64,000 nt of DNA from Ancylostoma caninum (lineage: Eukaryota > Nematoda > Chromadorea > Rhabditida > Ancylostomatidae), in contig JBAJFG010000347.1 in NCBI GenBank assembly GCA_037903475.1, forward strand, positions 1,488,001-1,552,000, written 5' to 3'. Below the pieces are notes generated by a model that made no database searches, was not told where the DNA came from, and saw nothing but the letters and a program-made list of their open reading frames with translations. A program made the translations under genes and the position numbers. Below, in pieces: positions 31,123 to 58,031 of the stretch (within the stretch, counting starts at the first letter, position 1; every line of letters starts with the position of its first letter).

Positions 31123-31935
31123 CTCCTATCATCGGCTTTGCTTTTTGCATATTGCAAAAAGTCGTGTTGAACGGACTTCACGACGGGAAGTAGTCGTTTC
31201 AGGCTTAGACGCACTTAACAGTCATGTGCGGACGTTCTCATCAAGTTTCTGTCCACTATCCTGGCTTTTAACAACTGGTCGCTTCCCCGAAGCAGACATA
31301 GGAAACAGTGGATAAGGAATCTACAGTCGAAAGCTTGCGACTTAGGAGACATGTTCTCCTCTAAAAAATAACGACGGTTCCCTTTTGTGATTCTTAATTG
31401 ATACATTTATGAAACAACAATATGTACCAGTCTGGCCGTCCGGCTGACGCTGGACTTCCGTTTGACTCATCAAAAAAGATTTACCACGTTTCTCAGCACA
31501 ATTTTATATTTAGCTCAACAGAAATAGCTATTCATAACTGTACAAAACCGATTCAACCTGGAATAACTATAGGAAATGGTTAAACATTCCTTGTTTGTTA
31601 TAACTGGTCAAATGGCAAGAGCCAGTTTGAGGATATAAAAAAGGAGGGCCGATGTGTTCATAAACAAGTGAGAGGAGAAAAACGCGGGAGTGGAGGAAAT
31701 CACACGGATACTACTCAGTGCTGAGCTCTGACATTCAGTGTTTTACGATGCGCGAGCGCCAGCTAACCGATCGGGCAAGGATGGATCCAACTCATGCCTT
31801 TTCTCAGTAGTGAACTCCAGCGCACCCCTTCTCCGTCAGTCGTCACATTTTCGGGCGTTTCCCCACTCCTAGAATCGTCTCGTACTTTATTCTCCTCATC
31901 CTGAGAAATGAATAGTTGATCTGAGTTACCTCCCG

Positions 31936-32058
31936 TTAGACTTCTACATTATCTGCATTCTGCATGCACCGAACTACCTTTCTTCGAAAATGTTTCGCGA
32001 TTTTGGATGTAAAGAGAATGAATAAGATGGGAGACAGAACTCGAGCTTGGTGTACTCC
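31936..32058 (-). mobile_element. Non-LTR reverse transcriptase fragment
   Basis: A minus-strand frame reads GVHQARVLSPILFILF, the conserved GVPQGSVLSPxLF block of non-LTR reverse transcriptases, and ends near NADNVEV where the catalytic YADDV would be, just before a stop. The catalytic Y and second D are changed, so it is inactive. Only this ~120-bp piece is recognisable. Confidence 0.65.
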
Positions 32059-33200
32059 ACTACAGATGAGTGTTTTTCAATACATTTTGTGACTACACTA
32101 TGTTTCTGTGCTCTGTATTGGCGTATTCGAACGTTATTCGTTCGTGGTAACCTCCCCCCCCTCCCCCCTTCACGGGAACACTCTGAAAGGGAAACCTGCT
32201 GGCGTTCCCCACGAAATTATCACTTATTTGATTTTATTACGTTCATCGCTCAGGTGTCGGCATGGTGAACTATGAAATGATGGGTGTTTTGAACGAATCC
32301 ATAAGTGCTGGTGTTTGTTCTTACAAGTGTTAGATAGCCAAGAATAAGAAAGAAAACACCCAAGCAAAGCAGGATTTGCCTACTGTGCAATACTTTAGTA
32401 GGATTGTGCTAACCATTGTTTTGCCTTTCTGGCGCGTGCCCCAACCTCATAAAACCGTTGACGGCCCCATTTGCTTGGGTGCAACAACAATAATAAACTG
32501 CTACGATTTACACTCTGCTATTCGGCTAGCACCTGGTGACCTTTGAATAGCCTAAGACCATTTGCGGCATTCTGCAGCGAAATATCTCTTCTGCACCAAT
32601 ATTTCTAGCAAGAAACATATCAAAATTTCCATCGAAGCGGTGCACTTGCTCATCAGTAGTTCTATATAACCGGTGTGTGTCCTCTTAATGTCAAGTTGAC
32701 TTTGTGTCAACCAGCTTCAAGCGTAGGGCATTTTAGTGGGCGAAATTACGTTTCTTCCCCTTCCACAGCTCAGTGACTGCATTATGAATTCCCACTTCGC
32801 CTTCGAATAACCCTGAATTAATCATTGTATTTCTCCTATACACGCGCAGCATCTTCGCCTTCTTGGCTTTTTGAACTTCACGATATATGTGCAAACAAGT
32901 TATTCCTAGTGAGACGACTTCGGCAAGTGCTCCTATTTTCAGCAGAAATGTGAGGTCTTTCCTGTTCCACATCTGTTCGTTCTAATGTTGTCAGAGGCCC
33001 AAAGCGGTAGTTTACTTAATGTTCCTTTAAATTTCTTGTAAGAATTCAATAGTGTCGAGCTCCTGATTCCAAATAAATGAAAATTGTGCTTTGAGTTCAA
33101 ACTTTCTTATGTGGAACGTGCTGGTGGCATATCTAGAAGCATTTTCGAGAAAGAATTGAAATTTTTGTTAGTTACAGGTCCAACACAATTCTTGTGCAGC

Positions 33201-34462
33201 CACAAGGTGGCCGTAAAGTATGGGCGTCACATAAAACGTCATCTTCCCTACGAACATTTCATCTTTTCCATTATAGCAGCTACGCAACCACGCGAAAAAT
33301 CATTTCCACAAGGACTTTTAGAAGTTGCCTTCCTTGGCTTAGGCACAGGCCTTCAACGTTGCCACCACGAAATCCCCTATGCGCCGCGGGTAGTCCTCAC
33401 CAATTTCTGATCAGCACTACAGAGTCAGGGCTGCACATTTTCTGAGTTCGTGATGTTCTTGTTCTCCAATGTTTCCTCTATAAAACCTCTAACGGAGAAA
33501 TTCAATGTGTTCAAGTCTCGAGTGCAGGAAAACTATTGATTCTTGTTAAGGAATCCGGAGGAAGCCTCTTCTAGGTGGGCAATGGTGTTTTAGCCTCGTG
33601 AACTGGAGATTTCTCTTTTCTGAGGAGCCGTGTTGGCTTCTTTCCATACCCATCAGACAAGCCTTTTCCAAGAATCCCGTCTTATTACAAAGTGGCGTCC
33701 TTTTTGTCGAATTTGTTCATGTAAACCAGAGATATTCTCGCATTTGTGGTCATTCTTCCTCAAATCAATACAGCGCCGGTATACAATAACCTTGTGAACC
33801 TTGTGACGAATCTTTTTTCTGAAGAGTGTTGCTCACTCCGCTGGATAAACTGACCTTCCGTTTAGGGGCTGTGAACAACCCAAATGGGGAAAATTTTCTC
33901 ATCAGTCTATGGAACACCTTAGGTGCGGTGCACCTGTCAGAAGCTCAACAAACTCCTCAAGCCTGTCAACTGTGGCAACAAAGGTTAGATGTTGGGCCTT
34001 GGACATGCAATAGTGGCAAAGTCTCAAATTTTTTTCTGACATTTATTAGACGGAAAAACCTGCAACACTCGGTCTTTTGGCTATCTTTTTCGGGCCCGCT
34101 CCTCCATTTCAAGTGATCCTCCAAATGATCGCAGGAATCCTCGTTGTGTTCACCGATCGAGGACGGCCTTGTTTTCTTTTCAGTTTAATATTCCCTTCAG
34201 CTTCCCATGGCTTGATGGTCTTCCGCGCTGTTTGCAAAGAGTTTTTAAGTTCTATTTCTATTGCTGCAGTGGACTCTCCAAACCACGCGAGGGTTACAAT
34301 GGATTTGCAGTGCGGGCACGCTCACATGACTGAAATCCAACTGAGCTATAAGTCTAAAGGAAGAGGATTTTATGTCGTTCCTAAAAAATGTGAAACAAAG
34401 GCGTGATAGAAATCGAAAGTAAAAAAAAGTAGTGGGGCGCCCATACTTTTCGGCCACCCAGT
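33201..34462 (-). mobile_element. Decayed maT/Tc1-type transposon (1.26 kb)
   Basis: The inner parts of the terminal repeats agree: GGTGGCCGTAAAGTATGGGCG at the left and inverted GGTGGCCGAAAAGTATGGGCG at the right, with TA at the right tip. On the minus strand broken frames resemble the DNA-binding part of a Tc1/maT transposase: RKTIKPWEAEGNI, then KQGRPRSVNTTRI, then KKIAKRPSVAGFSV and MSKAQHLT. Multiple stops and shifts make it inactive. No intact catalytic core could be read toward 33300. Confidence 0.7.
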
Positions 34463-36788
34463 ATTCTAAACCAGCAGCTCGAGAGGTTTTAATCCAATTG
34501 AAAACAGTTTGAAAACGTCTGAATTCGTCCATTCCCAATGATTCCGACGGTTTCCGGCTGATCTTAACGACAAGAATCAGAAGCTTTATTGTGTTTAGGT
34601 TCAGATGGTTTATATGGTTTATTTATTTAGGTTTATATGGCGCACCTTGAGTGCATTTAGTAAATAAATAAACAAATAAATAAATACTAAATAAATATGT
34701 GTTGCTACTTCTTGCATTAATTACACCTAAAGAAAAACATAAGGGAAAAAAAGAAAAACAAACGTTCGTTGGTGCTATCACATTTTTCTTGTATCGGTTC
34801 TCTGGTGATCTCAGCAGTACCTTTCTTCCAATGTTGGATAACTCTATAATTCTAGATGATTAAGTAGATTTGTCCATATACTGACGTTGCTACACACATA
34901 CGCTTTGTATATATTTCTGTGTTTACATTGGCGTTCAATATAATTATGTGCGTTGTGCGTACAAAGCACTCGTAAAACCTTTATAGTGGAGGTAAGGTAG
35001 TCCTGATAAATCACTAAATTATAGCAAAATCCATCTCTAACTTTAGGTAAAAGGAGGGTGCCAACACTGGACATCGAAATTTACAGAAATGGGAACTTCA
35101 AAATTCTATTAAATTTCAGCCACGGTTCCATTACAGCTTCACACTTGAAACTTTTTGAAAGCATTGGGAAAAGTGTATTTATGTAAATGTATTGAGGAAT
35201 CTTCATGTTTGACCAGCCATTGTACCTATTTACAGCGCGTATCGAGCATCACTAGTGCCGTAGAATCTGCGTCGTTCCCGTCAAAAAGATGACTTCCTGT
35301 GGATAGACTGTTCGACAAACAGCTATTATCTCTAGGAGTGACAATTATGGGCATAAATTTGTTTTGCAGCAATTACGGAATGTTTCACCAGACGAGCCAA
35401 GCCAACTCATTTGCCCATTTGGTAAATGGCTGAAGTCGCCGTGCCATGTACTGCCTCGTAGATTGCATGTTTAACAGATAAATTGCCGTTCTCATTGCTG
35501 TTAAAATAACCCAGCAACCTCTTGTGAGAGTAGAAGGATCAATAAAAGTATGAACAACCAGAGTTCCAGAAGCTTCACATTCTAAAATGTGAAAGATCTT
35601 TACTACCCATATTATGAGCGTGCAAAGTAATCGGTACTCGCTGAAGTATAAACAGATTTACTATGTTTGGCTGGCTTATTTTCTCACTACTCTAAAGACA
35701 AGAAAATGAATGAAACAACGAGAGTAAAAAATGTTTTTTTTTCATAAAGCAAGGAAACTCAGCGTTGGAAATATCGAACTCTTTTTTTTTTCGGATTTCT
35801 CAGCTTTCGGAGGCTTCGTTCCATGTGTGTTTTCAACTTTTATGTGCACGCAAATTGGGTGCTTGGCTGTTTTTTTCTGAATAATTTACGCGGTACGACT
35901 GCTGGTGGACTTCTGGCTCCCGAAGGAGTTGTTGTCCTTTCAGTTCTGATCATAATTAACTATCTGTTCTACTTTCTAAAACACTCTACATCGTATTCAA
36001 AGCCTGAAGTGTTACTAGAGATTTCCGTAAAATATTATATGTGTTGTCCTTTCTTGTGGTTTTTCCATGAATATTCATCCAGTGAAATTAACCTAATCTC
36101 ATCCATGAATTATGCCAAAAACAGCCCCATCCACAAAGAGCTACCTTGTATTCATAAAGCATGGTTCAAATCTGCACTAGAACAGTGATCAGCTAGTATT
36201 TTGAATAGATATTTTTCCTAAAACTCATGTCTTTTTATGGACAAGTACGTAGCAGACCAAATTCTTCCGCTCTGGTTAGGGATATTCATGCATGGGTATC
36301 CTTAATAATGCCATGGATCCTTTCAAATTATTACTGCATACGTGACTGGCTTTCCTGTCCAGCTTTACAGAACAGTTTTGAATACATCAGGATGACTGCT
36401 CTTCTTCCGTGTGAACATCCACCTTCTTACTGCTTTTCCAGCTACTTCTCCCATGTGTGAATAGCTGACGACGCTTGACGCGTGTGCACTTTGTCGGAAT
36501 CCATAAATTTGCGTCGCGTCAAACACTGACTTTTCGTGGACGATCGTAAATTGCCACATGTAGCACATCAGTCAGGCTTTTCATGGGACATTATGGCCAT
36601 GAATTGCCCTCATAATTGGCTCTTTGCACTCTCCAAACCTTTGACGCTTTTCAGTGGGCGTCAACGTTGCGATTTTGCAGACCAATTAACTGGTGAAAGG
36701 ATTCTGGCGTTCAAGACCCTGGATATTCATCAGCAGCTATATTTTTAAGTTTCTTCTTGAATTTTGATGCGATCAGCACGAAATATTG
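34463..36788. other. Intergenic DNA with (TTTA)n repeat
   Basis: No gene recognised. Around 34610-34700 is a TTTATTTA/AAATAAAT-rich segment flanking GCGCACCTTGAGTGC, the inverted relative of the repeat near 21950. A 121-codon frame at 35823-36188 has a hydrophobic stretch but no recognisable family and no supporting splice structure. Confidence 0.4.
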
Positions 36789-37632
36789 TCTGTATATATA
36801 AAAGTCAAAGTTTGTATGTATGTGTGTGTGTATGTATGTAATGAATAGAAATCACGGAGAGTGAACCGATCGGGACCAAATTTTGCATGTAGGTTCTTTG
36901 GGGGCCGACGGAGGTCATAGGCTACTTTGCACCTGGGATTATTGATTGATTTATCGATTATATCGATTTTATTGATTTTTCGTTATTTTTGCTCAAGGGT
37001 CGGTGGGAACATGTCTTCTGGGGTTCCTCAATACGCAGAATACGAATATGATAACCATTTTGTACGAAATATTGATTTATTGATTTTATCGATTTTTCCC
37101 ATTTTCGCTCGGGGGCGGACAAAGACATATCTTCTGCGGTTTCTCAATACGCTGAACACGAATATGACAACCATTTCGCATGAAATATCGATTTATCGAT
37201 TTTATTGATTTTCGGCTCTTTTGCCCAATGGAGCGGTGAGGAGATGTCTCCTGGGGTTTCTCAATACGCTGAACACGAATATGCCAACCATTTCGCATGA
37301 GATATCGATTTATCGATTTTATTGATTTTTGGCTCTTCCGCCCAATGAGGCGGTGAAGACATCTCTCCTGGGGTTCCTCGATAAGCTGAGTATGAATATG
37401 ACAACTAATTTGTAGGAATACATCGATTCAATGTCACCGGAATAGCTTTGCTAACTTTTCGCCCAAAGTCGATGGGAAAGGGCCACCTGAGCTTCGTTAA
37501 CATGCTGATCACCAAATTGGAGATCAGCATTTTGGAGATTTCAATGAATTTATTGGTGATAGTAATTGGCCTCAGCAGTGTGATGTAGCCAAGGTAGTAA
37601 AACACCCGAGCAAAGCCGGGTACTGCAGCTAG
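36789..37632 (+). mobile_element. Non-autonomous Helitron
   Basis: The right end has the Helitron signature: a short hairpin (CCCGAGCAAAGCCGGG, CCCG/CGGG arms) a few bases before a terminal CTAG, followed by T in the flank. The left end TCTGTATATATAAAAGTC with a TATG/TGTG-rich run is typical of these elements, but the preceding base is G rather than A, so the exact start is less certain. No Rep/helicase is encoded; the interior is mostly a 117-bp tandem repeat. Confidence 0.7.
36945..37440. repeat. 117-bp tandem repeat, about four copies
   Basis: The landmark CTCAATACGC (CTCGATAAGC in the last unit) recurs at 37027, 37143, 37260 and 37377, i.e. every 116-117 bp. Units carry ATCGATTTATCGATTTTATT and GAACACGAATATGACAACC blocks. 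It forms the body of the Helitron. Confidence 0.9.
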
Positions 37633-37677
37633 TTCGTTATAAAAGTTGCTTTCTTGCACAAGCAATGTATAGTGCCC

Positions 37678-38200
37678 TTAAAGGCAAGGTCCAGTCAAAA
37701 TCTCACCCACCCAGGTTCCTTGCTCTCTCGAGTTCAAACCATGTGTATAGCACGTATATCAAGTTTGAGACCTTGGTATAAACTCCATCGCAAGATACGG
37801 GGTAAAACGTCCAAGGATTACGGTAGCCATGGAAAAACGCGCTCCAACCGACAAAAGTTGCGCGAAAGCCTATTGAACAACGATGGACGCTTAGATACAT
37901 ACGCCCTGATGAACACTCCGCAAAAGCTCCCCCACCCCATCAAACGGACCACTGGTCATTTCAATACGAATTTTTTCCTACGACGTCACAACAGACAGCA
38001 GCTAGGGCGCGCCGCATAACGTCATTTGAAAGCACGGACGCCGCAAACCTGCAAACGCCGCACCGAAATTGGTCGATGGAAAGCGTTTGTTGTGAGATTT
38101 TTTCAGGGGTTTTTCTCTAGTTTTCTTCCAAGGGATCACCGTGGGCTACGAATCCAATAGAAATTCGGGAGATGGAATTTTGCCCAAACTTTGCCTTTGA
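37678..38200. mobile_element. MITE with TTAAAGGCAAGG ends, inverted copy (523 bp)
   Basis: Same family as 4050-4573 in opposite orientation. The left end is TTAAAGGCAAGGTCC; the right end ATTTTGCCCAAACTTTGCCTTTGA is more diverged, with TTGA in place of TTAA. It begins 45 bp after the Helitron end. Its internal 121-codon frame is not a conserved gene. Confidence 0.8.
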
Positions 38201-39684
38201 GGGATAGTTTTGCCGCACACTGGAAATTGGATAATTATTGAGGTTTTGTTATCTCTAACTAGCGCTGAATTTGATTGATTAAACTGAGCTGTTTCTTATT
38301 AGGTAAGAAGCTGCACAGTGAAAGTATGGCCAAGTACGTAATACGCTACAGTACCGCTAATAATTTTTGCAAAAAGGACGCGCGCGCCGCATTAATTAGT
38401 CTCAAAGCTCCTTCTTTTTGTAATTTCCTTAAAATAAGGATACCCAATTTTTTGAAGGGATGGATTCTCTTAATTACAAAGAATCGAATCATTTACAAAT
38501 TTCTCAATATTGTTCGTTGTTGGTGTCGAAATTTCGATGTTGAAAAGATTATATATGTTCAGATTGGTCATGAAGTGCACAATCTGGCTTTCCAAGAAAA
38601 ACTGTCATTGGTTTCCTTTTAAGAATGTAATGGACGAGAGATGGCTTGCGACGGTTGAACGCGTCGTGCACGTCCTTTTTGCAAAGATTAGCAGCACTAT
38701 TGTACGTAGATGTACTCAAAATTTCAAATTCGATTTCGGGTAAGACAAAAAAGTGGTTGTAAACGAAAAGGAGAGAACAAGACAAAAGAAAGAAATGTAG
38801 GAAGGGAATTTTGGATGTTCTCTATCTCTAACATTAATTCTTGGACATGGTACTAAATTACTAATTGACTTTGGTAAATTATTCGGCTTTATTCGGTTCG
38901 AACTATGGTGAAGGGCTCCACTTATAAGCACTTTGTAATACCCGCTTTTATTGTATTGAATGAGTAGACTTGCTTCTTGAGATGGAGACCGATGATATTT
39001 CGGGTGGATATCCTTGAAATCCGTTCTTGCAACTGGTTTGAACCCATGTGAGTCTGATTTACTTACTTTGCTTTCTCGAACTTCTCAGCAGCTCCTGTTC
39101 GATTATTCATTTGAAATGAACACAACTAAACGATTATTTTGAGAGCTTTTCCCTATTTCTCTATGTTTGCTTTTGCATAGTCTCCTTCCAGAAGGAAAAA
39201 TGTTCGTGATGCTTACTGACTTCTAGCTGCTACCAACTGTGCTGTTCCTCTTCGAAACCTTTTTATCTATTCGTTGGTTTTGCTGACATCTGTCCACCAC
39301 TCTATGTATGCATTTACAGCGACAGCCAGTACTCTTCATACATGGATTCCGTTAATGAATACCCAAAAGATGTTGCAGTTCGTCCCCTATCAGGTTTTGC
39401 TTTTCATGGCAGCTTTTCTCTTCATTCGAAGTTATCGTCCCACTTTGCCTAGTTTGTTGTTCAGCGAAATGACTACTGCTGACACGCCATGCAACAATGA
39501 TTTGGATTTCTGAGTCCAGAAACCTCTACAGTCTAATTGAATTACTTGGAATAAGTGGAAAAATCTTACAACAAGTTTTTTTTTACCTGGAATTAATCGC
39601 GTATCTGGGATTCCATGTGTGGAATAGTATGGGCTTGGAAGAGCTTGGGAATCAGATAGCCTGAAGAAATAGTGCCAATAATAT
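38201..39684. other. Intergenic DNA, no gene recognised
   Basis: No recognisable exon or repeat structure; several 70-115-codon frames without signatures overlap on both strands. Confidence 0.4.
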
Positions 39685-40952
39685 TAGGTGGGTGCTGAAG
39701 TTCCGGGGCAGTTGGTGGTATTTCACCGTTCAACGTCGTTTTGCTGCTTGCGTTTGCGATATCCTGCAACAATTTTCATGCATGCTGGTAAAACATCTGC
39801 TACCCATACCATCTTTGGCTCGGGTTTATGTCACAGCGTTGCTCTGTTTTGGGTGTAAAACCAATGCCATGAGCTGTGCAATAATTTGGGGAATTTCGCT
39901 TTATGAAATCAAATCTAGACGATCAACAAGAGAAGCGACCCATAGCATCAATAATGCGTTTGTGGAGAGTATGTTCTCTAAAACACCAGGTACTCGAGGG
40001 TTCCTAAGAATTCTGAGCGGGGATGAGAGCCTGGAAAATGCTTCACAAGTTGGTCAAAGATTTGGTCATCGCAAAGGCGCCAGAAAAGAGCAGGTTGAAC
40101 CAGACCTTGCGCAAACTGCGCAAGACATTATGGGGAATTGAGTTAAGAATGTCTCGTCACCTGAAGAAAATTGGTAGGAAGGGGAAGGTGAGCAGATGGA
40201 TTTTGCGTGAGTTGAGCGGAGAGCACTAACGTCCGCACTGGCAATTCTGCAGATATTCGACCTTCAGATTTCCTGATAATTCGTTTCATGGAAGAATTGT
40301 TATCGTTGATAGAGAATGGGTCAGGTACGACAATAGGAGGAGGTCATCCCAAAGTCCGGGCTCCTGCCACCCAATTAAAAAATGGCCGAACCATCACTAC
40401 CTTCTTTAAAAAAAATTTTTGACCTTTCATGGCCAGCGACGTGACTCATCTGCAATGAATTATTCTTCTAATGAATAGACAATAATCGCCCTCTAGTTTT
40501 CTTTTCCCTAAAATAATCACGGGAAGACACTTGAGCTTATGGCCGACACAGGCGGAAATGTGTGGTCTGGTCCGGCTGTGGGATAACGCACACAAGCACG
40601 TTGCAGCGTCAACCGTATAAAGAATTGGCCATTCGTGCTCCGAAATTCTATCCTAATCTATACTACTCCTTATACCTGCCTCGAAGAGACTACTCCCATT
40701 TCAACCTTCTATGTCTTTATCTCCGCTGTAAAACTTTTAATGAACAGACCCTACTGGAAAACGACGTGTGCCAATATTACAGGTGTAGGCCTGTCAAATT
40801 TTTAGCTTTTGGAGAAATCTTTTCGGTGCCATATTGGCAAGATTACGAAGATGCCAGTGCTTTTTATTTTGAACAAAATTGCTGACTTTGAATCAAGTTA
40901 TGGCGTTTCGAAAAATTACGTGCAACTGCCCCAGAACTTTTGCACGCACCTA
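39685..40952 (+). mobile_element. Decayed mariner element (1.27 kb)
   Basis: TA at both tips. The left end TTAGGTGGGTGCTGAAGTTC and inverted right end TTAGGTGCGTGCAAAAGTTC continue to a shared GGGGCAGTTG. The length suits mariner (about 1.3 kb). Forward frames retain recognisable transposase parts: HLKKIGRKGKVSRWILREL (compare HLxxIGKxxKLxxWVPHEL) near 40160-40215, a WDNAHKHVAAST-like block near 40590, and at 40700-40880 a C-terminal KTFNEQTLLENDVCQYY to YFEQNC segment. Frameshifts and stops show it is dead. Confidence 0.8.
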
Positions 40953-43890
40953 ATACATATGTAGTGATAAGCCAATACAAAACCTTCAAAATGCAAACTG
41001 CAAATTATAACGTAACTTGGGAGAAATTAGTCGACTGTTTATGGAGATCACTTCGGCCCACGCTCCCACCTCTTCCCTCCTTTCCCACCCGTACGTTCAC
41101 CTACACTTGTTAAAGGTTCATATTTATGTGTAGGTATTGTTGCCAATCCAATGTCAAGCAGTAGCTGCGTATAATCTGCCTGTATTCAGTGAAATATGAA
41201 GCGTTATTTTGATAGTATGTTGAAATTTTCATACCATCTGTATATTATATCTAATGGACATATATTTAAGGGAAGTTGTTTTTTTTTCTGCTTTTATGCT
41301 CGAGATCACCTTTAGTTTTTTTTTCACTATTTCTTTATTTTCTGCAACTTCAATTTCGGTGTTGTTTGTTGAGCTGTTTGCTTCCTGCCGTTAATTTTCC
41401 TTCTAAGAAGCACTTCATTCTATCCATTCCCTCCCTTCTCCTTCTATGAACATGAGCTGCAATTACATTCTAACGCTGTACCTGGCTTGTTTCAGAGCTG
41501 CTAGCCTATGTCTATTTGCGGCTCTCGATCAGCCCATTCCCTATCTGTGTCGCCGCCTCGTCCCGTTCGTGTTGTAATTAATCGCCCTCAATAATGTATG
41601 AGGGTACTTGGGTGTAATACGCAACAGACAATTGACAGCCGCCTGCGACGAGATGTCGCAAGGTTGGGCATTCCCAGTAAGAGCTCACCATAAGTCACGA
41701 GCCCTTTACCTTAACACTCTGTTACCCGCGCTTTGTTTTTGGCCTTGTATTCACAAGAGGAACTTCTTCCATCCTAATGGTAAATGAGTAAACAGGTTGC
41801 CCGAGGAAGTGCATTACTCAGGCAACCTTACATGGAAATCACCGACGACTTTCGGGTATGTTCGTCTGTGTGTGGGCACGCCAACGTCGTTGTTTGTTCC
41901 GTTCGAGACGCTCCTCAAGCACCTTGACGTGCGTGCTTCTTGAGTGTCTCATTAGATTTACCTACCAGGCGCTTCGCCAACATCGCCACGAATTTCCATG
42001 GCCGCCACTGAAAACATGATTTAGCTGCTGCTTTTTCAGAGAGCATCGGACGGTTTTTTGGGCTTGATGCCATTACGACTGGATTTCTCTTGATGCTAGC
42101 GGGAGCTTGAGGGGAGCTTTAGGAATTAGCAATCCTTCGACTGGAGAATTTTTATACTGGTATAGCCTGTTCCAAACGCGACAATAGTTTAGTAAACGAT
42201 AACCTGTTTTTTACTACTCGCGTTCTTTTCCTTACTGATCTCTTCCCAGCCATCGCCCCTGTTGAAGCCCTCTATGAATACCTAGTGATTTTCGCATAAA
42301 AAATATTGTTACGGTTCGCCTTGCTCATGGTCAACATCTGTGAATTCTTTAATGCATAGTAATTATCTCCTATTCTCTGTCGTTAGGCCTAATTACATGT
42401 TAGTTTTGAAGGCGAAGAAGCGCCGGCTGTAATCACACTTCTGCAAGTGTTTGGATAAAACTCTCAGTCAAGAACTGGTGTGTTCGGGAGTAACCTGAGG
42501 TTATGCTGTGTAAAGTTATTTTATTTTAATGTTTCTGTTTTAGAGTGGCATTTTCTCTCTTCTTTGCCATCGTTTGCCCCTCCTTCCTTACTCTATTTTC
42601 CTGATGTACTGGTATTTTCTGTCAATCCCCATTTGCTTCCATATCTCAGTGGTAGAGGTGTGATACGTTTCCTACTTCAGATAGATGTTTGGTGATTTTC
42701 ATGAGTTATCCTGCGTACACTCATTTCAGTAAACGAATCGTAAGCCTGTTTCTTGGTAAACCACCAGCTTTATATTTCTCAAGCAAGCATCAATAAGCTT
42801 TAGGTTTTTTCTTAAACTTTTACTCATTGCCTTAGTAGAATCATTAGCAATGCGTCCACAATTCTCATCTCGTTCATGAAAAAGAACGAAAGTTAGCAAG
42901 ATGTGATCGAAATGAAATGACTAAGAAGTGAAAAAGAAGTGAAAGAGTGGTAAAAAAGAGACTAAGTTTACCTATAACTGACTGTGTGAAGCTACAGCAA
43001 CTCATGTATGTTTCACATTAGATGAGAGCAAAAGCTGTGCTTTATCAGTTTCAGTCAAGTCAGGAGGAAGATTCCTCGTTAGCGTCTGCTCGATATGTTC
43101 ACATCAGCACATCAGCAAAAATCAAAACATTGACTTAAGACAGGTAGTTCGGATGTCGAAAGTTCGAAATTTGGGGGATATGCAGGGAAAAACAACATGC
43201 ATGACCAAGCATACGTCAGCCATGACCAATCAATCCTTCACAAATCCAGAAATTGGAAGCTCGCATAATGCCAGGATTCAGGTGCCTTGAAACTTCCGAC
43301 ACCAGAATTTTCGTTGCGTCGCATTTGCGGAGGCAAAAAGGACTTGGATTTAAGAAATCGAATTTATTTTAAGGTGGTCTACTTGTCTGTGGCTCAATGA
43401 ACAGATCTTCAACGAACTTTATCACCTTCCTAATATGACCTTCTAATTCTTCCTTCTATGACCTTCTAATTCCTTAGCACCTATATGTCATCCTCCATCC
43501 ATATCATAGCCTCTCTACAATTTCTATTTCCCTTCAGTTTTCATATTTCTCTTCGTTTCTCTTATTTTTGAGGAATTTTTCTTAATATTTCTGAAATGTG
43601 AGTTTCCATTGATGTCCAGATTCCATTTCCTCACTCTCGTTCTCCTATATGTACACATGTTTATGTTCATATTCTATGAGACAGACTCCGACTACACTAC
43701 AAAAACTAATTTCGTGGTGTAGTAATGAGATCTTTTGTGATCCCGACTACTCCAGTATCACATCCTCCCCGTGGAGCTTTCATTACATTTCCTTTGCTTT
43801 CTTGAATATGACGGCAAGCATTGAATCCTGGGAAGTTTTGGCTTCTTTCATCTGAGGCTGTTGCTATGTACATAGTGAATACAGCATGCA
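40953..43890. other. Gene-poor stretch
   Basis: No gene recognised. It includes pyrimidine-rich segments (41280-41470, 42540-42610) and a small inverted repeat near 41795-41830 (CAGGTTGCC / GGCAACCT). No coding similarity was found. Confidence 0.4.
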
Positions 43891-45773: not shown

Positions 45774-48700
45774 ATGACTACTTTCTTATGCCTGCTGCTC
45801 TGGCTACTAGGAATTACTGAAGCACAGAAGCTGGTCGTGATCGTAGGTGAGATTGAGACGAAGGCGCTTGAGTATCTCCTTAACAACTTCTGGAACAAGA
45901 CATGTACTTTAAATGAAGATCATTAGCAGGACATTTTTGAAGAAAGCGACAGGAATTGTTATCACTGCAACAAGCTCTTTTTCTCGGTCGAAGGGCAGCA
46001 ATTTTCAGTCAATTTAGGCCATCAAAGCATTGAAAGACTTCAAGGCTTGACCTTCTCACATTTGAGACAACATGAAAATACTCTATAAAAAGATTAAACT
46101 GCTCCGCATTCGATATGATCCTAGAAGGGTTTAAAACGGAAAGTTTCAGCCGAAGGACTCAGTGGAGCACACTTCCATCGTTTCTCTCACCTATCTGGAT
46201 TGCGACTTTTTGAGGAGGAAGGAGTATGGTCCACAAGGCTGTTTCCGGTGTTTCCTACACTACCACTACCGAATCGTCATACATTGTTGACCGGTGACTT
46301 TGCCTTCTTAACTTTTGAAATGCATTGGAGAACAACTGTTCGTTTCTGAAAAATTTCCCTGCTCACTAAGCGCAGGAAAAACCGCAGTATAAAATTCATC
46401 AAAAATTGTATAATAGTATTATGTAATGGTCAAATCTAAAAATTTTCTCTTTTAAGGAGTACTCCCACGAAAACACGGCATGATGAGCGATTTTGTCTTC
46501 AACTGGAGAACTGGACAAGAATTTCTAAACTTCACGCAAGAGTCTGATTTTATGAAGAGGTAAAACGAAAAATTAAGATTTTGAAAATCTCATTCGAATC
46601 GAAGAGCATTTGCTGCAATTTTTGGATAGCTCCTTTTTGCTCTAACTTCGTTTTCTAACACCTACATTACAAAATATCCCGAGAAGGTGAAGCGTTTGTC
46701 GACGACCACATATAGGAGATGATACATATAGTTCAGAAAAGCGGAAATGGAGTGGAGCCATATGTCAGGCCCAGTTTCTCCCTACGTTTTTCGTGCGCTT
46801 TTTCCTCGGACACTTGCTTAGAACTTGCAGAGAACTCTTAAAAGCTACATGTAGTATTACTTATTACATTACTCAAGTATTCTATGTACATACATAGAAT
46901 ACTTGAGTAATGAGTATAACCTTTATGACTTCTAACTATGTAAAAAATCTGATGAAAAAATTGGAATGATGAGGATTGAACTTGACGTCACCTTTCTTTG
47001 CTTCTAGAGGCCGTCCGACGAATGGAGATTTGTTCCCCTGATGAGGCGAATATTTCCAATTAGAGGGGTGTCCTACGTACATGAGATCACATCGGAAATA
47101 CTCAAAAACGGGTTTTGCCAATATTTCAATTGATTAGGGACATTTCTATGATTTACATTACCTCATTATTCACACATTATAAGTACCCGAAACGAGGTGG
47201 AGGTGAGATGCTGAATTTAAACGTTAGAGTCGATGAAATTTGGCTCTTAGTAATTGCATGTGTTATGAAATGTTATTGCTTTTTTTTTGCTGTGTATGAT
47301 AATATGATGGCTACTCCCATTAGACAAAATGAATACCAGAAAGGTTACCTGCCTAATAGCTAGGTGAGATGTCATGTCGTACGAGGGCAGGGTGTGTACG
47401 GAAGTAAACATGAAATGGTAGTCATGTACATTTCATGATGATCACATGGTTACGGTTCCGGCCATCAGCTTTCTTTTATTCAAGGAAATTTGATGGCTAG
47501 GTAGTATAAGGAGTATCTTGCTGATTCTTTCAGAAGTAAAAATAGAGAAAATCTCAGAAATCTCAGAAATACATAGAGAAAAGATAAGTTTTTTTCCAGT
47601 GAATGGTGGATGACGGAACCAATTTACGTGACAGCCACAAGAGCAAAAGCATCTGTTGCAATGTTCTTCTTCCCGGAATGCCAAGTAATTATTTCGTTAT
47701 CAATTTTATTACGCAGCCTCGAAAAATCTTTTTGAGGTGGACTGGGTGCCTGCTCCTCACCTGTGCGTTCCCCCGCGCAAGGACGGTATGTCGTTCGCAG
47801 ATGAGCGGATTGCGAAGATCGTTGTCGAAGCTACAAAGTACTGTTTACTGAGTTAAACTCAGCAAAAGTTATTAGTCTTCAGGAAACCTTCTTACATGAA
47901 CACCTTTAAAAATTATTTTTGGTTTTTTTTCATTTTACCCTTCGTTTGCATGACTCTGTACGTCAATTTTCAGATCCCACGACTTGGTGTTAGTCTACCA
48001 TCCAAACATCCGGGAACAAATCGCGAACATCGGCCCGAAGAGATCAAATGATAGAACAGCTACTGAAGTCGACAAATTCCAGCAGGTGGAACTTTGGACA
48101 ATCTGGGCCACAGAAGAATTCAGTGGTTCGGACCCACTTGCGCGCGTCACCTATGTATCTCATTTTGGGGGCTCTGATTCTCTGCGCATCCGCACATTCC
48201 ACTGATATTCCTTTTCTCATTCAAAGCAGTGAAGTCTTTCACGTACTTCCTAAATCAGCGATGTTAATAGCTAATTCAGGCTCTGGAAAGGCTAACTGCA
48301 CAGGCTCGAGAACGCATAGACTTGAACGTGATGGTGATCTCACCCCACGGCCTTGTTGATGTCCCTAAAAGAAATATAAGGTTTGTCCAAGAATTGAAAA
48401 GAAAGAAGCAGGCAAATTAACGAATTTAAGGGTTCTGGATGACTACCTTCCCATGGAACTGCTCCAGATGTCGATAGGAAGTGGAGCAGTGAAGCAGCTT
48501 ATTGCTGTGCCGGGTAAAACACATCAAGTCTACTCGCAGCTACGCAATCATACACCGATACCCAACGTCAAGGTTTACTTCACTGCTCCGAAGGTAGTAA
48601 TTTTTGTTCACTCTTCATCATTATGTGCTGCATTAGGGAGGTTCCATCTCTATACGTCCGCGCCCATTCTGTAAAAGTGAACAACATCTAAGTAATGAAA

Positions 48701-51332
48701 AAGTTGGTAGATCTACTACTGTGCATATTGTCTACCCGAGCAGTGGATGTCCTTCACAGCCTTTTATTTTGTATGCTCTTTGTAGGCAAATTAGAGGACT
48801 CATCTTTTCCGTTCGTGGAAGCGATAGGTTGATTCGACCACCAGTATTAAAGCGTGTGAAGATGTGAGTTGGTAGTTGGTTCGCAGCGAAGAGGCCTATC
48901 CGAGCAGTTGATGCTCTTTACAGCCTAAGCTCACCCTTTCTTCTTAAAACGGAGGGGGGGGGGGAGGGGTGCAAGAGGCCAGGCTCGCAGAACGGAATGA
49001 AACCTATCTGGCTTGAATCTTTGTTTGAAAAGGTGCTACAGGATTTATTTCCTTACTGCCCTCGGTTCCAAGAAATAGAAATTCTACCACACTACTAAAT
49101 GCGTTGCATCACTCGTCCGTCCGTGACGGGGTGCCCGTGTGATGAAGTGCGGTAGAATTTCAATTTTTTGGAATCGAGGGCAGTAATGAAATATATATTG
49201 TAGCACCTTATCAGACAAAGATTCAAGCCAGATAGATTTCATTCCGAACTGCGGGCCTGGCCTCTTGCAGCTCCCTTGTTAGGCACCCCTACAACTTACT
49301 ACAGGAGGTTACAGCAAAGACGGCGATATATGGAATGTTGGACAGTTAATAAATGTTAATGTTCTATCCAGAACGTGAGTTGTCCTGAGGTGGACCCTCT
49401 GCAGATGTTGACCGAGTTGGGTATTAAGCGTGTCTTTCAACACGGATCTTCTTTCACCTTCATCCTAATTACACAAATTGAATCCAAACAGGAGACTGGC
49501 ACCAGAAAGCCTGTTAACAACATAACTAACGAATAGTCGCCTGCTAGGTTAACTTGCGGGAGCTTACTTGGCCAAACAGGCGGGTCCTGTTTGTTTCTCG
49601 GTCGGGAGAGGGTCGTCTCGCTTCCCAAAGGCTCGCTCCCCCTTTTTGGAGCTTGCCAAAACTAGCTGGCTTCCTCTTCGCGCTTCTCTTTATACCCGTC
49701 GCAGATGGTCAAGAAGTGCGTTTTTCCCACTATCTTGTCGGTCATCGTGATCTCTAAAGATGTAAAATTGCTATGTCAACTACAAAGTATTTGTCAAAGG
49801 CGGATGAGACCTATGAGAACTTCACGATGCGCTAACAGAAAATTCCTCGTGAGGCTGTGACTATTATAGGTCGGGGATCTGCCAGAATGGTATCATTACA
49901 AGAAGTCTTCTACGGTTCCAGATCTGGTTCTTGTTGCACAACCTGGCTATGCCATCGTTACGGTGAGCAAGATATGATATTTTCCATTTTCACCGCTCCT
50001 ACATTTTCATGGTATTTTCAGAGGGAGGATTAGCCTAATATTCGTTCAGTAAAACTGTTTTCCAGATAGAGTGGTTAGATTTCGAGTGAAAAATAGTTCT
50101 GTTAGATATACGCAAATGTTATAGTAACGCTTATTTCAATGTTTTCAGCGGGACCTCGCCAAGCAAATTCCACCACTAAATCCAAACGAGGTCAAAGCGG
50201 GTATGAGCGGCTACAACAACCATTATCCTGACATGTTGGGAGTATTCCTTGCCTATGGTCCAGGTGAGATGCCGTTTCTTGCGAGGCTTTCGTGGTAACC
50301 AGACTGAGCATAGAGCCATATGCCATTCGGCTAAACTTATTGTTAGGAGTAAAGAATTCTCGTGAGTTCTTGATAATTTTTACTTCGATAAATAGCTTGC
50401 AGGGCTTGAATATAGCATATATGGAAATTGGGCCGGCGTATGTAGAAGATTACTTGAAATTTATGTATTATATCGTCAAATTTGACTTGAGAGATTCGTT
50501 TTCTCACGAGAAATTTCCACTAGAATTAGCTTCCGATCTGTAGGGATAATTGGTGCAAAACTGTTGGCAGATTGAGTTTTGGAGGACAATTTAAGCTTTG
50601 CTGGACAAACTAGCACCTTGCCACTCAATAAACTCGTTATCTAAGTAAAAATTCACAAAGCTGTCTCTTATCGCCGAGGTCTTCCAGACTTTCAGAACTC
50701 TTTAGCATAAATTTTTTCTTATTCTCTGCTATGATGCATTTGATTTAGTTTTCCGCAAAGGCTATCATAAAGGCCCGCTTGAATTGTGTGACATCTACAC
50801 ACTAATGTGCTCCTTACTGCGGATTGACGATTGTAACACATCATGTGGGAGGTAAGTCATCTTGATTTTCTTATTAGTAGTACCTAGCAGTGGCGGACGC
50901 AGGGGGGGGGAGGCGGGGGGCGCGCCCCCCCCCGAGAATGGGTCGCCAAATTTTCGAAATTACTTTACAATACAAATAAAAATCTTGTGTTAGTTTATTT
51001 TTAATTGTTTATTTTTATTATTATTTTTAATATACTTTTTATTTATTGTTTATTATTATAATTAATATTATTATTAATTTTATTTTCCGTCTGGGTCCCC
51101 AAAACGGCGGAGACCCCACTTTTCTTCCCACGCCCCCCCTCCCGCCCACTTTCTGCGTCCGCCACTGGTACCTAGTAGGATTTATGTATGTCTCGTCATC
51201 AGGATCCTTCGAATCGACGACGTCCTCACAAGTGACACCCGCGTAGCTGTACGAGCAAAGCTGAATAGAACAAACCATGCAGTTTTGCCCGGTGTTGCTG
51301 TCGCTGTCATTGTTGTTGTTATGTTATTGTAA
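45774..51332 (+). CDS. NPP-family pseudo-phosphodiesterase, secreted or surface-anchored
   Basis: Twelve exons: 45774-45846, 46150-46293, 46457-46559, 47600-47684, 47717-47837, 47974-48085, 48280-48380, 48431-48593, 49870-49962, 50149-50263, 50749-50851, 51203-51332 (about 447 residues). Signal peptide MTTFLCLLLWLLGITEA leads into a type I phosphodiesterase/NPP fold recognisable throughout: EEEGVWSTRLFPVFPTL, LPNRHTLLTG, EWWMTEPIYVTA, MSFADERI, LNVMVISPHGLVDVPKR, LPEWYHYKK, GMSGYNNHYPDMLGVFLAYG. The hydrophobic end LPGVAVAVIVVVMLL suggests a GPI or membrane anchor. The family hydrolyses phosphodiester bonds with two zinc ions and a Thr nucleophile, but here those residues are replaced (DGF to EGL, PTKT to PTLP, DHG to PHG, GxHGYDN to GMSGYNN, and the D-x-x-x-H block lost), so it is probably not a phosphodiesterase. 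All junctions are in phase except 47684/47717, which is one base short. Introns hold a palindrome, a foldback repeat and a hAT MITE. Confidence 0.85.
46867..46912. repeat. Perfect 22-bp inverted repeat
   Basis: Arms 46867-46888 and 46891-46912 are exact reverse complements around CA (core CTCAAGTATTCTATGTA). It lies in intron 3 of the NPP-like gene. The 2-base spacer would not form a normal hairpin loop without opening a few pairs. Confidence 0.9.
48971..49268. mobile_element. Foldback (long inverted repeat) element
   Basis: Arms of about 120-130 bp: GCAAGAGGCCAGGCTCGCAG onward at the left and its diverged reverse complement ending GCGGGCCTGGCCTCTTGC at the right. The centre has further CATCAC/GTGATG pairing. 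Arms differ by scattered substitutions. It sits in intron 8 of the NPP-like gene, next to a G-homopolymer. No clear target duplication. Confidence 0.8.
50888..51167. mobile_element. hAT-type MITE with 8-bp target duplication (280 bp)
   Basis: The terminal inverted repeat CAGTGGCGGACGCAG is matched exactly at the other end (CTGCGTCCGCCACTG). It is flanked by perfect 8-bp duplications GTACCTAG at 50880-50887 and 51168-51175, diagnostic of hAT transposition. The interior is AT-rich between G-run and C-run subterminal blocks. It occupies most of the 351-nt last intron of the NPP-like gene; without it and one duplication that intron would be 63 nt. Confidence 0.92.
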
Positions 51333-53244: not shown

Positions 53245-53289
53245 GGCCATTTGAGCTACTTTATTTAAGGCACGTTTCCTGCCATTTGA

Positions 53290-54620
53290 GCTATTCAAAC
53301 AGTTATTTACACCTGGGCCAACGTGGACCCCTCCGCCATCCGTGAACCAGTATCTTCTCGCTCCTCACAATTGGGTAAAAGCGGACCTCTCCTCCATCGG
53401 CATAACCGCATCCTGGCATTCCCACACATTAAGCGGACAGCAGAACCACGTTCTGGCGTTCCTAGCACCTGAACCACAGCGGACCTCCCTTATACCCGCG
53501 AACCCCCACCTTAACGTTCCCTACATTTTTAGGCCACAGCGCAGCCACTCCTCCATCCACGAACCCGCGTCCTGGAGTTCCCTCCGCTTTCAGGCCCCAG
53601 AAGACCCATCCCTCCTTCGGTGGACCAGAATACTGGTGTTCCTCACACCTGGGCAGCAGCGGACCCCTATTCCATCGGCATGCCCCTGGGATTCCCACAC
53701 TTTATGGCAAAGCAGACCCATCTTCCATCCGTGAACTCGAATTCTTTTATTTCTCACACTTGGGCCAACGGACCCCTCCTCCATCCGTCAACAGTATCAT
53801 CTCGTTCCTCACAATTGGATGAAAGCGGACCTCTCTCCCATCGGCATAACCGCATACTGGGATTCCCACATTTTTAGGGCACAACAGACCCATATTCTGG
53901 CGTTCCTCGCACCTGGGGCTCGGCGGACCTCTCCTACACCAGCGAACTCGTATTTTGGCGTTCTCCACATTTTTGGACCACAGCACATCCCCTCCACCAT
54001 TCAGGAATCCGTATCCTGGAGTTCCCTTAGCTTTCAGGCCACAGCAGACTCATCCCCTCTTCGATGGACCCGAATGCTGGCGTTTTTAACAACTGAGCCA
54101 CCTTTCCATCTGCATAATCCTGTCATTATCCTATCCTGTCATTCTAACAGTTTTGGCTACAACAAACCCATTCTGGCGTTTCTCGCACCAGGGGCACAGC
54201 GGACCTCTCCTATGCCAGCGAACCCGTATCTTGGCGCTCCCCACATTTTCAGACCACAACGCACCCCCTCCTCCATCTGCGCACCCGTATCTTGGAGTTC
54301 CCTTAACTTTCAGGCCCCAGAAGACCCCCTTCGTTAGACCCGAATGCTGGCGTTCCCTCAACTTTCAGGCCACAGCAGACCCATCCTCCCTTCAGTTTAC
54401 CAGAATGCTGATGTTCCTCACACCTGAGCCACAGCGGGCCCCTGTTCCATCGGCATGACCGTTTCCTGTCATTCACTCACTTTTTGGCCACCACAGACCC
54501 ATCGTCCATCGGTGAACCCCTAATCTGGCATTTCTCCCACCTGGGCCATGTCAGACCCCTCCTCCATCTGAGAACCCGTATCCTGGCTTTTCCGCAACGT
54601 TGAGTCACAGTACTACCCCT
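53290..54620. repeat. Degenerate ~60-bp GC-rich minisatellite, about 20 units
   Basis: Recurring blocks CACAGCGGACCCCTCCTCCA, TCCGTGAACCCGTATC and TGGCGTTCCTCACA repeat every 54-63 bp. Units are heavily substituted. Long open frames across it on both strands follow from the repeat's composition and are not taken as genes. A second, shorter array of the same repeat lies at 60460-60960. Confidence 0.85.
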
Positions 54621-56099: not shown

Positions 56100-58031
56100 T
56101 TAAAATAAAGTGAGCTTGTGGTGGGCTCGAGATAATCGGACGTAGTGCACGAAAGGAAGTGAGAACGAAAGTCCGCGAAAAGAAGCGTTTGTACCATCTC
56201 TTCCTTGACAATAAAACGGCAGGCAACTGGAGCAGTTACAGGGAGGAGAAGAGGGCTGCGAAGAAGGCCGTGGCCGCTGCGAAAGCGGCTCATTACGATG
56301 AAGTCTGTAAGAAGTTGGACTCGAAAGACGGTGAGCGCTTTATTTACCGACTTGCGAAGTCGCGCCAGCGCCAAACAGACGATGTCGAGAAGTTTCACGG
56401 TGTTAACGATGAACAAGGCCATCTTCTCATGGACCGCAAGATGGCAACGATGGAGGGATTACTTTGAGAAAGTCCCCGCGGAAGAATTTGCGCATCCTTC
56501 TGCCCCAGAAATCTCGCCCACCTTCGGACCGGTACAGCCGATCACCATCGAAGAGACCATGTTTGCATTGAAACGTATGAAGCTAGGCAAGGCGACTGGT
56601 CCAGATGATATGGCAGCGGAAGTGTGAAAGGCACAGGGTTGGAGCTCCGCCGAATGGTTGACGAAGTTTTTCAACTTGGCAATAGCGGAGATGAAGGTGC
56701 CCGAGGACTAGCAACGAAGCATCACCATCCCGATCTGGAAGGGTAAGGGCAGTCCCGCAGATTGCGCGAACTATAGGCCAATCCGTCTGTTGTCGCATAC
56801 CATGAAGATCTTCGAGCGTATCATTGATCGCCGGATTCGTGAAAATGTTCAACTATCCCCGAACCAGTGCAGTTTTGTACCCGGATGCGGCACTACCGAT
56901 GCCATCCATACTGCCCGTCTCCTGATCGAGAAGCATCGTGAGAAGAAACGGCCAGTGCACCTAGCGTTCCTCGACCTGGAGAAGGCCTTCGATCGCGTCC
57001 CGCACCAAGTAATCTGGTATGCAACGCGGCTTCAAGGCATTCCGGAGGAGCTTCTCAGATGGGTGCAGATGCTTTACGCCGATCATAGGAGTAAAGTGCA
57101 GGCGGCAGCTGGCACATCGACAGAGTTCCGCATAACCTTGGCGTACACCAAGGCTCAGCTCTCTCTCCGCTCCTTTTCATCGTTGTCATGGATGCCCTCA
57201 CAAAGGACCTTCAAAGACCGGTGCCTTGGACCCTGTTGTATGCCGACGACGTAATGCTAGCACCTGAAGACAAGGGTGAGCTTGAACGGCAGACGCAAGC
57301 GTGGAGTGACCGACTGGCACGGTTTGGCCTTCGCCTCAACATTAAGAAGACAGTGTATCTGACCACAGACGAACATGAGCACGGCACTATTAAAGTTAAT
57401 GGCATGAATCTCCCGAGAGCCACTGCGTTCAAATACCTCGGTTTAATGGTCTCATCGGACGGCAGTCTCGCTCATGAGATGATCGCACGCGTTAACGCTG
57501 TGTGGCTGAAGTGGCGCTCACTGACTGGTGTGCTGTGCGACAAGAGCATCCCAGACCGCCTGAAGTCGAAGATCTACCGAACAGTGGTACCCCCAGGTCG
57601 CGCTCTATGGTGCCGAATGTTGGCCTGCCACCAAGGAAATGGAGCGCCGAATCAATGTCATGGAAATGAGGATGCTGCGGTGGATGGGTGGCATTACGCA
57701 GCTGGATCGCTTCTGCAACCAGGACATACGGCAGCGATTTGGAGTTACTGCGATAGCCGACAAGCTCCGTGAGGCGCGTCTGCGATGGTTCGGCCACGTT
57801 CTCCGTGCTGATGGCGATAAAGTCTGTAGGATTGGCTTCAATCTAGAAGTACCAGGAAAGCGACCGAAAGGACGACCAAAGCAAAGATGGTTTGATACTC
57901 TGCACGCCGACCTCAAGCTGGTTAGGATCCATCCCGACCAGGCGCACGACAGGGCAATATGGCGTCAAAGGATCACCCCGCTACGAAACGGGAAAAACGC
58001 TAGGAAGAAAAAGTGCACGAAAGGACACTAA
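56100..58031 (+). mobile_element. Degenerate RTE-like non-LTR retrotransposon, 5' truncated
   Basis: The forward strand reads a reverse transcriptase in pieces: KAVAAAKAAHYDEVCKKLDS; LGKATGPDDMAAEV (stop at 56625); GSPADCANYRPIRLLSHTMK; HLAFLDLEKAFDRVPHQVIW (motif A, catalytic D); LLYADDVMLAPEDKG (motif C, intact YADD); LRWMGGI and LRWFGHVLRADGDK; and RPKGRPKQRWFDTL near the C-terminus at 58031. Nonsense codons at about 56625 and 56709 and frame changes near 56440, 57140 and 57590 inactivate it. The endonuclease domain expected upstream is missing. Clade (RTE versus relatives) is from overall resemblance only. Confidence 0.85.

Follow-up and report, generated by a model that had tools for sequence, protein, structure and literature searches.

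A probable catalytically dead branch of the NPP family in Ancylostoma caninum and other nematodes

A 64,000-nucleotide stretch of the Ancylostoma caninum genome (GenBank assembly GCA_037903475.1, contig JBAJFG010000347.1, positions 1,488,001 to 1,552,000; hereafter the window) carries an intact gene of the NPP family on its forward strand, at 45774 to 51332, in whose product seven of the eight catalytic residues of the family are replaced. We conclude that this gene probably encodes a catalytically dead NPP-family protein of nematodes, likely a non-enzymatic binding protein and predicted to be anchored at the outer surface. At the level of sequence, the zinc-binding set is lost, proteins of this kind form a single clade, and the reading frame is open; the best reading of these comparisons is an old pseudoenzyme rather than a lone decaying copy.

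The gene has 12 exons, which give 440 codons plus a stop codon ending at 51332. All 11 introns are of the GT..AG type, the joined exons form a single open frame, and no frame or splice defects were found in the gene. Residues 20 to 347 matched Pfam PF01663 from profile position 1 to 341 of 342 (E 5e-49, 168 bits, curated cut-off 23), so the protein has the NPP-family fold by a full-length match, and the initial annotation was correct in describing a 12-exon NPP-family protein recognizable from end to end. For 439 random codons of the window's composition, the probability of staying open is about 1e-11, a rough figure since the exons were chosen for openness; the match to the family over its full length speaks more strongly against chance. 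Guided by ENPP6 only, a spliced alignment placed five of the 11 introns correctly at both ends and three more at the acceptor; exons 5 and 6, which it did not recover, have frames that are backed by orthologues. No family was assigned to the protein by NCBIfam, and the phosphonoacetate hydrolase family TIGR02335 was weakly matched by 5 of the 25 members of the alignment. From an alignment-based AlphaFold2 run, an ENPP6-type fold is predicted; a single-sequence model (predicted local distance difference test score, pLDDT, 34.5) was discarded.

Catalytic NPPs were defined by a two-zinc site (Asp, Asp, His, Asp, His, and His) together with a Thr or Ser nucleophile and an Asn. The best match in both sequence and structure, and the closest among solved structures, was ENPP6 (PDB 5ege and 5egh), which like the window protein has a single phosphodiesterase (PDE) domain and whose zinc ligands and nucleophile are numbered as in PMC4757880. 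In this numbering the replacements are D32E, S71P, N92D, D193R, H197A, D240P, and H354S, corresponding to E26, P63, D84, R182, A186, P228, and S345 of the window protein, and the sole catalytic residue retained is H241 (H229). We take Asn92 and Asp240 to act in the ENPP6 active site. The motifs on which the initial annotation based its claim of a dismantled active site, AEGL, PTLPLPNRH, PHG, GMSGYNN (with Ser in place of His), and HPNIREQIAN, are all present. Its statement that nearly every zinc-binding or nucleophile position is substituted holds for seven of eight, because Asn92, which it had not listed, is also lost while the zinc ligand corresponding to His229 is retained. The zinc set is gone, and NPP enzyme activity is therefore not expected. 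Neither the window protein nor any of 20 compared orthologues has the catalytic set.

The differences from ENPP6 extend to the substrate pocket. ENPP6 is a choline-specific glycerophosphodiester phosphodiesterase, and of its choline pocket, Tyr72, Tyr75, Tyr157, and Glu190 correspond to Leu, Arg, Pro, and Pro in the window protein, which retains only Tyr188, a residue kept in 13 of the 21 compared sequences. Since the pocket is mostly replaced, ENPP6-like choline binding was rejected, and activity of the ENPP6 type would not be expected of the window protein. UniRef labels several members of the clade glycerophosphocholine cholinephosphodiesterase, a name that their residues contradict. Both cysteines of the ENPP6 insertion-loop pair, Cys142 and Cys154, are retained in 21 of 21 sequences; according to PMC4757880, this pair is conserved in ENPP6 proteins and not in other members of the family.

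A protein search returned 30 matches, of which 29 were nematode or nematode-like and one was bacterial, with relatives 41 to 96% identical to the window protein. The Ancylostoma ceylanicum protein differs at 16 of 440 positions (96% identity), a closeness that points very probably to an Ancylostoma-type hookworm, and relatives from Nippostrongylus and Haemonchus, together with the relative P0003, are 72 to 76% identical and have losses at the same positions. Besides the species of the window, more than a dozen roundworm species carry the dead NPP protein, among them members of Necator, Haemonchus, Nippostrongylus, Dictyocaulus, Cooperia, Oesophagostomum, Caenorhabditis, Diploscapter, Mesorhabditis, Pristionchus, Ascaris, and Dracunculus. 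We compared the window protein with 20 longer orthologues, and every one of these 21 copies lacks at least five of the eight catalytic residues. N92, D193, H197, and D240 are lost in all 21 and H354 in the 20 that are readable at this position. None of these five residues was found at any readable site in the nine nematode matches outside the compared set, so that no orthologue with an intact set was seen among the 29 nematode or nematode-like matches; the bacterial match keeps all eight.

His229 (H241) is kept in all 21 sequences, Arg67 is invariant, an acid is found at position 26 in 21 of 21 (Glu in 12 and Asp in 9; ENPP6 position 32) and at position 84 in 20 of 21, and Arg occurs at 182 or 186 in 16 of 21. 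The most conserved segments include the former nucleophile loop (residues 51 to 80) and the strand before SPHG (221 to 230). A different, metal-poor catalysis could draw on the invariant His229, the acid at 26, and, in Caenorhabditis, a Ser at the nucleophile position, where ENPP6 also has Ser and where Ser occurs in 4 of the 21 sequences. We consider this very unlikely, as that position is Pro in 13 of the sequences and four others each have a different residue there (Ala, Gly, Gln, and Leu), and the zinc ligands D193, H197, and H354 are gone in every readable sequence.

We then weighed maintenance of the gene against decay. When random substitutions, and substitutions only, were simulated to 73% identity, 1 of 500 frames was without a stop, and at 58% identity none of 500 was; real orthologues at 73% and 58% identity have open frames. 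Three relatives, P0003, P0008, and P0015, are encoded whole, in 1305, 1344, and 1344 bases within contigs of 2043, 1416, and 1745 bases, respectively. Two blocks of P0003 recur exactly in P0029, where they are separated by other sequence, and the ends of these blocks coincide with introns of the window gene, giving an intron-free copy beside an intron-bearing one; the P0003 contig is consistent with what spliced RNA would give. A decaying pseudogene or an artefact of the gene model could account for the loss of seven catalytic residues, the foldback elements in the introns, and the two exons missed by the ENPP6-guided alignment, but we give it almost no credence in view of the open frame, the canonical splice sites, the simulation, the intron-free contigs, and the close relatives that have lost the same positions. 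A lone decaying copy was likewise rejected, as orthologues share the same losses. The earlier proposal that the protein is kept for another purpose is thus strongly supported, since no orthologue with an intact set was found and an intron-free relative stands beside an intron-bearing copy.

Two maximum-likelihood trees each united the 21 dead sequences in one clade (support 100/100). Together with ENPP6 and C430, a second ENPP6-like gene of the same genome, these sequences were separated from ENPP4, ENPP5, and seven further A. caninum paralogues at 96/89. A grouping of the dead sequences with ENPP6 to the exclusion of C430 was not recovered (approximately unbiased [AU] test, p 0.174), and grouping the dead clade with ENPP4/5 gave an AU p of 0.04. 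When the bacterial NPP was added, the dead clade instead joined the bacterial long branch (85/67). Given this placement, the very long branch of C430, and trees that left out ENPP1-3 and ENPP7, an origin from ENPP6 itself can be proposed only tentatively. Because the Ascaris and Dracunculus sequences share the catalytic losses, these most simply predate the split of the Ascaris and Dracunculus lineages from the others.

The same genome also holds NPP genes of the intact kind. In the assembly searched (G000; 347.9 Mb, 638 contigs), Pfam placed NPP exons on at least six further contigs, and eight loci (C37 a, b, and c, C4, C392, C312, C223, and C430) were spliced. All but C430 carry D-T-N-D-H-D-H-H, the complete set of eight residues with a Thr nucleophile, and belong to the same Pfam family and domain as the window protein with the catalytic set entire. 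The intact paralogues share from 0 to 2 of 11 intron positions with the window gene, against random means of 0.3 to 0.5 and maxima of 3 to 4; because at most 2 of 11 are shared, within the random maxima, these positions say little. Three of the intact genes lie in tandem at 150001 to 210000 of C37, with a close relative on C4, and are a local expansion of active enzymes. In a protein search of the genome, the best candidates comprised 12 matches to exons of the window gene itself and a marginal one (E 0.5) to the C4 paralogue, with no second copy among them, and a recent duplicate was accordingly rejected.

The C430 gene (about 31300 to 41950; loci L025 and L026) has an incomplete model, its first exon not having been found reliably. 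Its sites two to eight read S-D-D-R-D-H-S, so that three of seven are lost (N92, H197, and H354) and S71, D193, D240, and H241 are retained, making it a possible half-dismantled relative. Instead of binding an outside ligand, the window protein could serve an active or half-active NPP of the worm, such as the C430 product, as its regulatory or chaperone-like subunit. C430 groups with the dead clade and ENPP6 at the 96/89 branch, has 2 of 11 intron positions in common with the window gene within two columns (random mean 0.36, maximum 3), and keeps part of the catalytic set, but its branch is very long, its gene model is incomplete, and a meeting of the two products is hypothetical; we regard such pairing as rather unlikely.

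We favor non-catalytic binding at the cell surface. With both zinc sites gone, Arg67 and His229, both invariant, might form a metal-free polar cluster with the acidic residues 26 and 84; this cluster would keep the former active-site loops in position and perhaps bind an anion. The signal-like N terminus and the uncharged hydrophobic C-terminal tail resemble those of proteins with a glycosylphosphatidylinositol (GPI) anchor, and the surface-anchored protein would bind a partner or ligand outside the cell, be it a protein, a glycan, or a phospho-compound, but would not hydrolyze it. The narrower proposal that an ENPP6-type enzyme became a metal-free surface receptor, in which arginines replace zinc and a phosphorylated ligand, for example a phosphocholine-bearing glycan, is gripped uncut, appears unlikely.

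Several observations weigh against the surface-binding interpretation. The eight former catalytic columns have a mean pairwise identity of 0.48, compared to 0.53 for the whole protein (425 columns). Conservation that does not rise above the protein's average speaks against a strict small-molecule site, and the former pocket may be just structural. It is for this reason that we commit to non-catalytic surface binding and name no particular partner. Catalytic positions were kept in one of seven cases and other family-invariant positions in 18 of 33, a difference that is not significant (Fisher p 0.095) and only suggestive of selective loss at the former. Secretion and a GPI-type anchor are predicted from hydropathy only: the signal peptide and hydrophobic C terminus of the initial annotation are borne out as hydrophobic ends, and the best 15-residue C-terminal average ranges from 1.24 to 3.69 among the 16 orthologues listed.

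The initial annotation had suggested ligand binding or decoy activity as the other purpose; the conservation of the catalytic columns did not bear out the specific role. A decoy aimed at the host, which would sequester a host ligand such as a nucleotide or a choline lipid while the worm lives as a parasite, would suit an animal that is probably a hookworm and a protein with a likely secretion signal. It is, however, highly improbable, since the protein is present in Caenorhabditis, Pristionchus, and Diploscapter, which are free-living, retains little of the choline pocket, and has a tail that resembles a membrane anchor. Presence in Caenorhabditis and Pristionchus argues against a host-directed decoy as the original role, and a parasite-only decoy was rejected on the same grounds.

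Elsewhere in the window, a 374-codon open frame on the reverse strand (19864 to 20985) with Tc3-type helix-turn-helix and DDE_3 domains is a Tc1/mariner-like transposase, and pieces of RVT_1 (reverse transcriptase) in two overlapping open frames on the forward strand (56712 to 57769) are a retrotransposon remnant. Open frames at 53255 to 54455 yield Pro/Ser/His-rich near-repeats, and the single frame tested had no Pfam match. Two foldback elements resembling miniature inverted-repeat transposable elements lie in introns 8 and 11 of the NPP gene, at 48970 to 49269 (arms of 124 nt, 89% complementary) and 50878 to 51177 (47 nt, 74%). Neither Rfam nor a tRNA scan gave a match in the window.

Table 1. 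Exons of the NPP-family gene in the window, with the former active-site positions that they encode
Feature	Window positions	Strand	Content
Exon 1	45774..45846	+	Start codon; signal-peptide-like hydrophobic N terminus; ends with the codon preceding the former D-G motif
Exon 2	46150..46293	+	AEGL, FPTLPLPNRH
Exon 2 sites	Glu26 46152-46154; Pro63 46263-46265; Arg67 46275-46277		ENPP6 Asp32; nucleophile Ser71; Tyr75
Exon 3	46457..46559	+	HGMMSDFVFN; Asp84 at 46489-46491 (ENPP6 Asn92); N-glycosylation sequon at residue 97
Exon 4	47600..47684	+	WWMTEPIYVTA...FFFPEC; Cys134 (ENPP6 Cys142)
Exon 5	47737..47837	+	Remainder of insertion loop; Cys145 (ENPP6 Cys154)
Exon 6	47974..48085	+	YHPNIREQIANIGP; Arg182 48011-48013 (zinc ligand Asp193); Ala186 48023-48025 (His197)
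Exon 7	48280..48380	+	SPHG; Pro228 48343-48345 (Asp240); His229 48346-48348 (His241, retained)
Exon 8	48431..48593	+	PGKTHQVYSQLRNHTPIPNVKVYFTAPK; two short insertions relative to ENPP6
Exon 9	49870..49962	+	VGDLPEWYHYKKSSTVPDLVLVAQPGYAIVT
Exon 10	50149..50263	+	GMSGYNN; Ser345 at 50206-50208 (zinc ligand His354)
Exon 11	50749..50851	+	VFRKGYHKGPLELCDIYTLMCSLLRIDDCNTSCGR
Exon 12	51203..51332	+	C-terminal segment; hydrophobic uncharged tail (GPI-signal-like); stop codon

Cell-surface pseudoenzymes are a known kind. The dead cholinesterase-fold neuroligins and the carbonic anhydrase-related proteins are pseudoenzymes that, like the window protein, retain an enzyme fold and have lost the catalytic set, although their folds are unlike its NPP fold. 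Among the papers listed by an open-access literature search for the terms used, no title or abstract describes a nematode ENPP pseudoenzyme; Caenorhabditis elegans T03G6.3, which we take to be NPP-like, is at most a candidate orthologue of the window gene. What is new here is an ancient and misnamed group of dead ENPP-family proteins and not a new principle. If our interpretation is correct, a family named as a choline-metabolizing enzyme does no such chemistry, and annotations at this gene would be wrong in hookworms, Ascaris, and Caenorhabditis. Its presence in Caenorhabditis would make the role of a non-catalytic ENPP fold directly testable.
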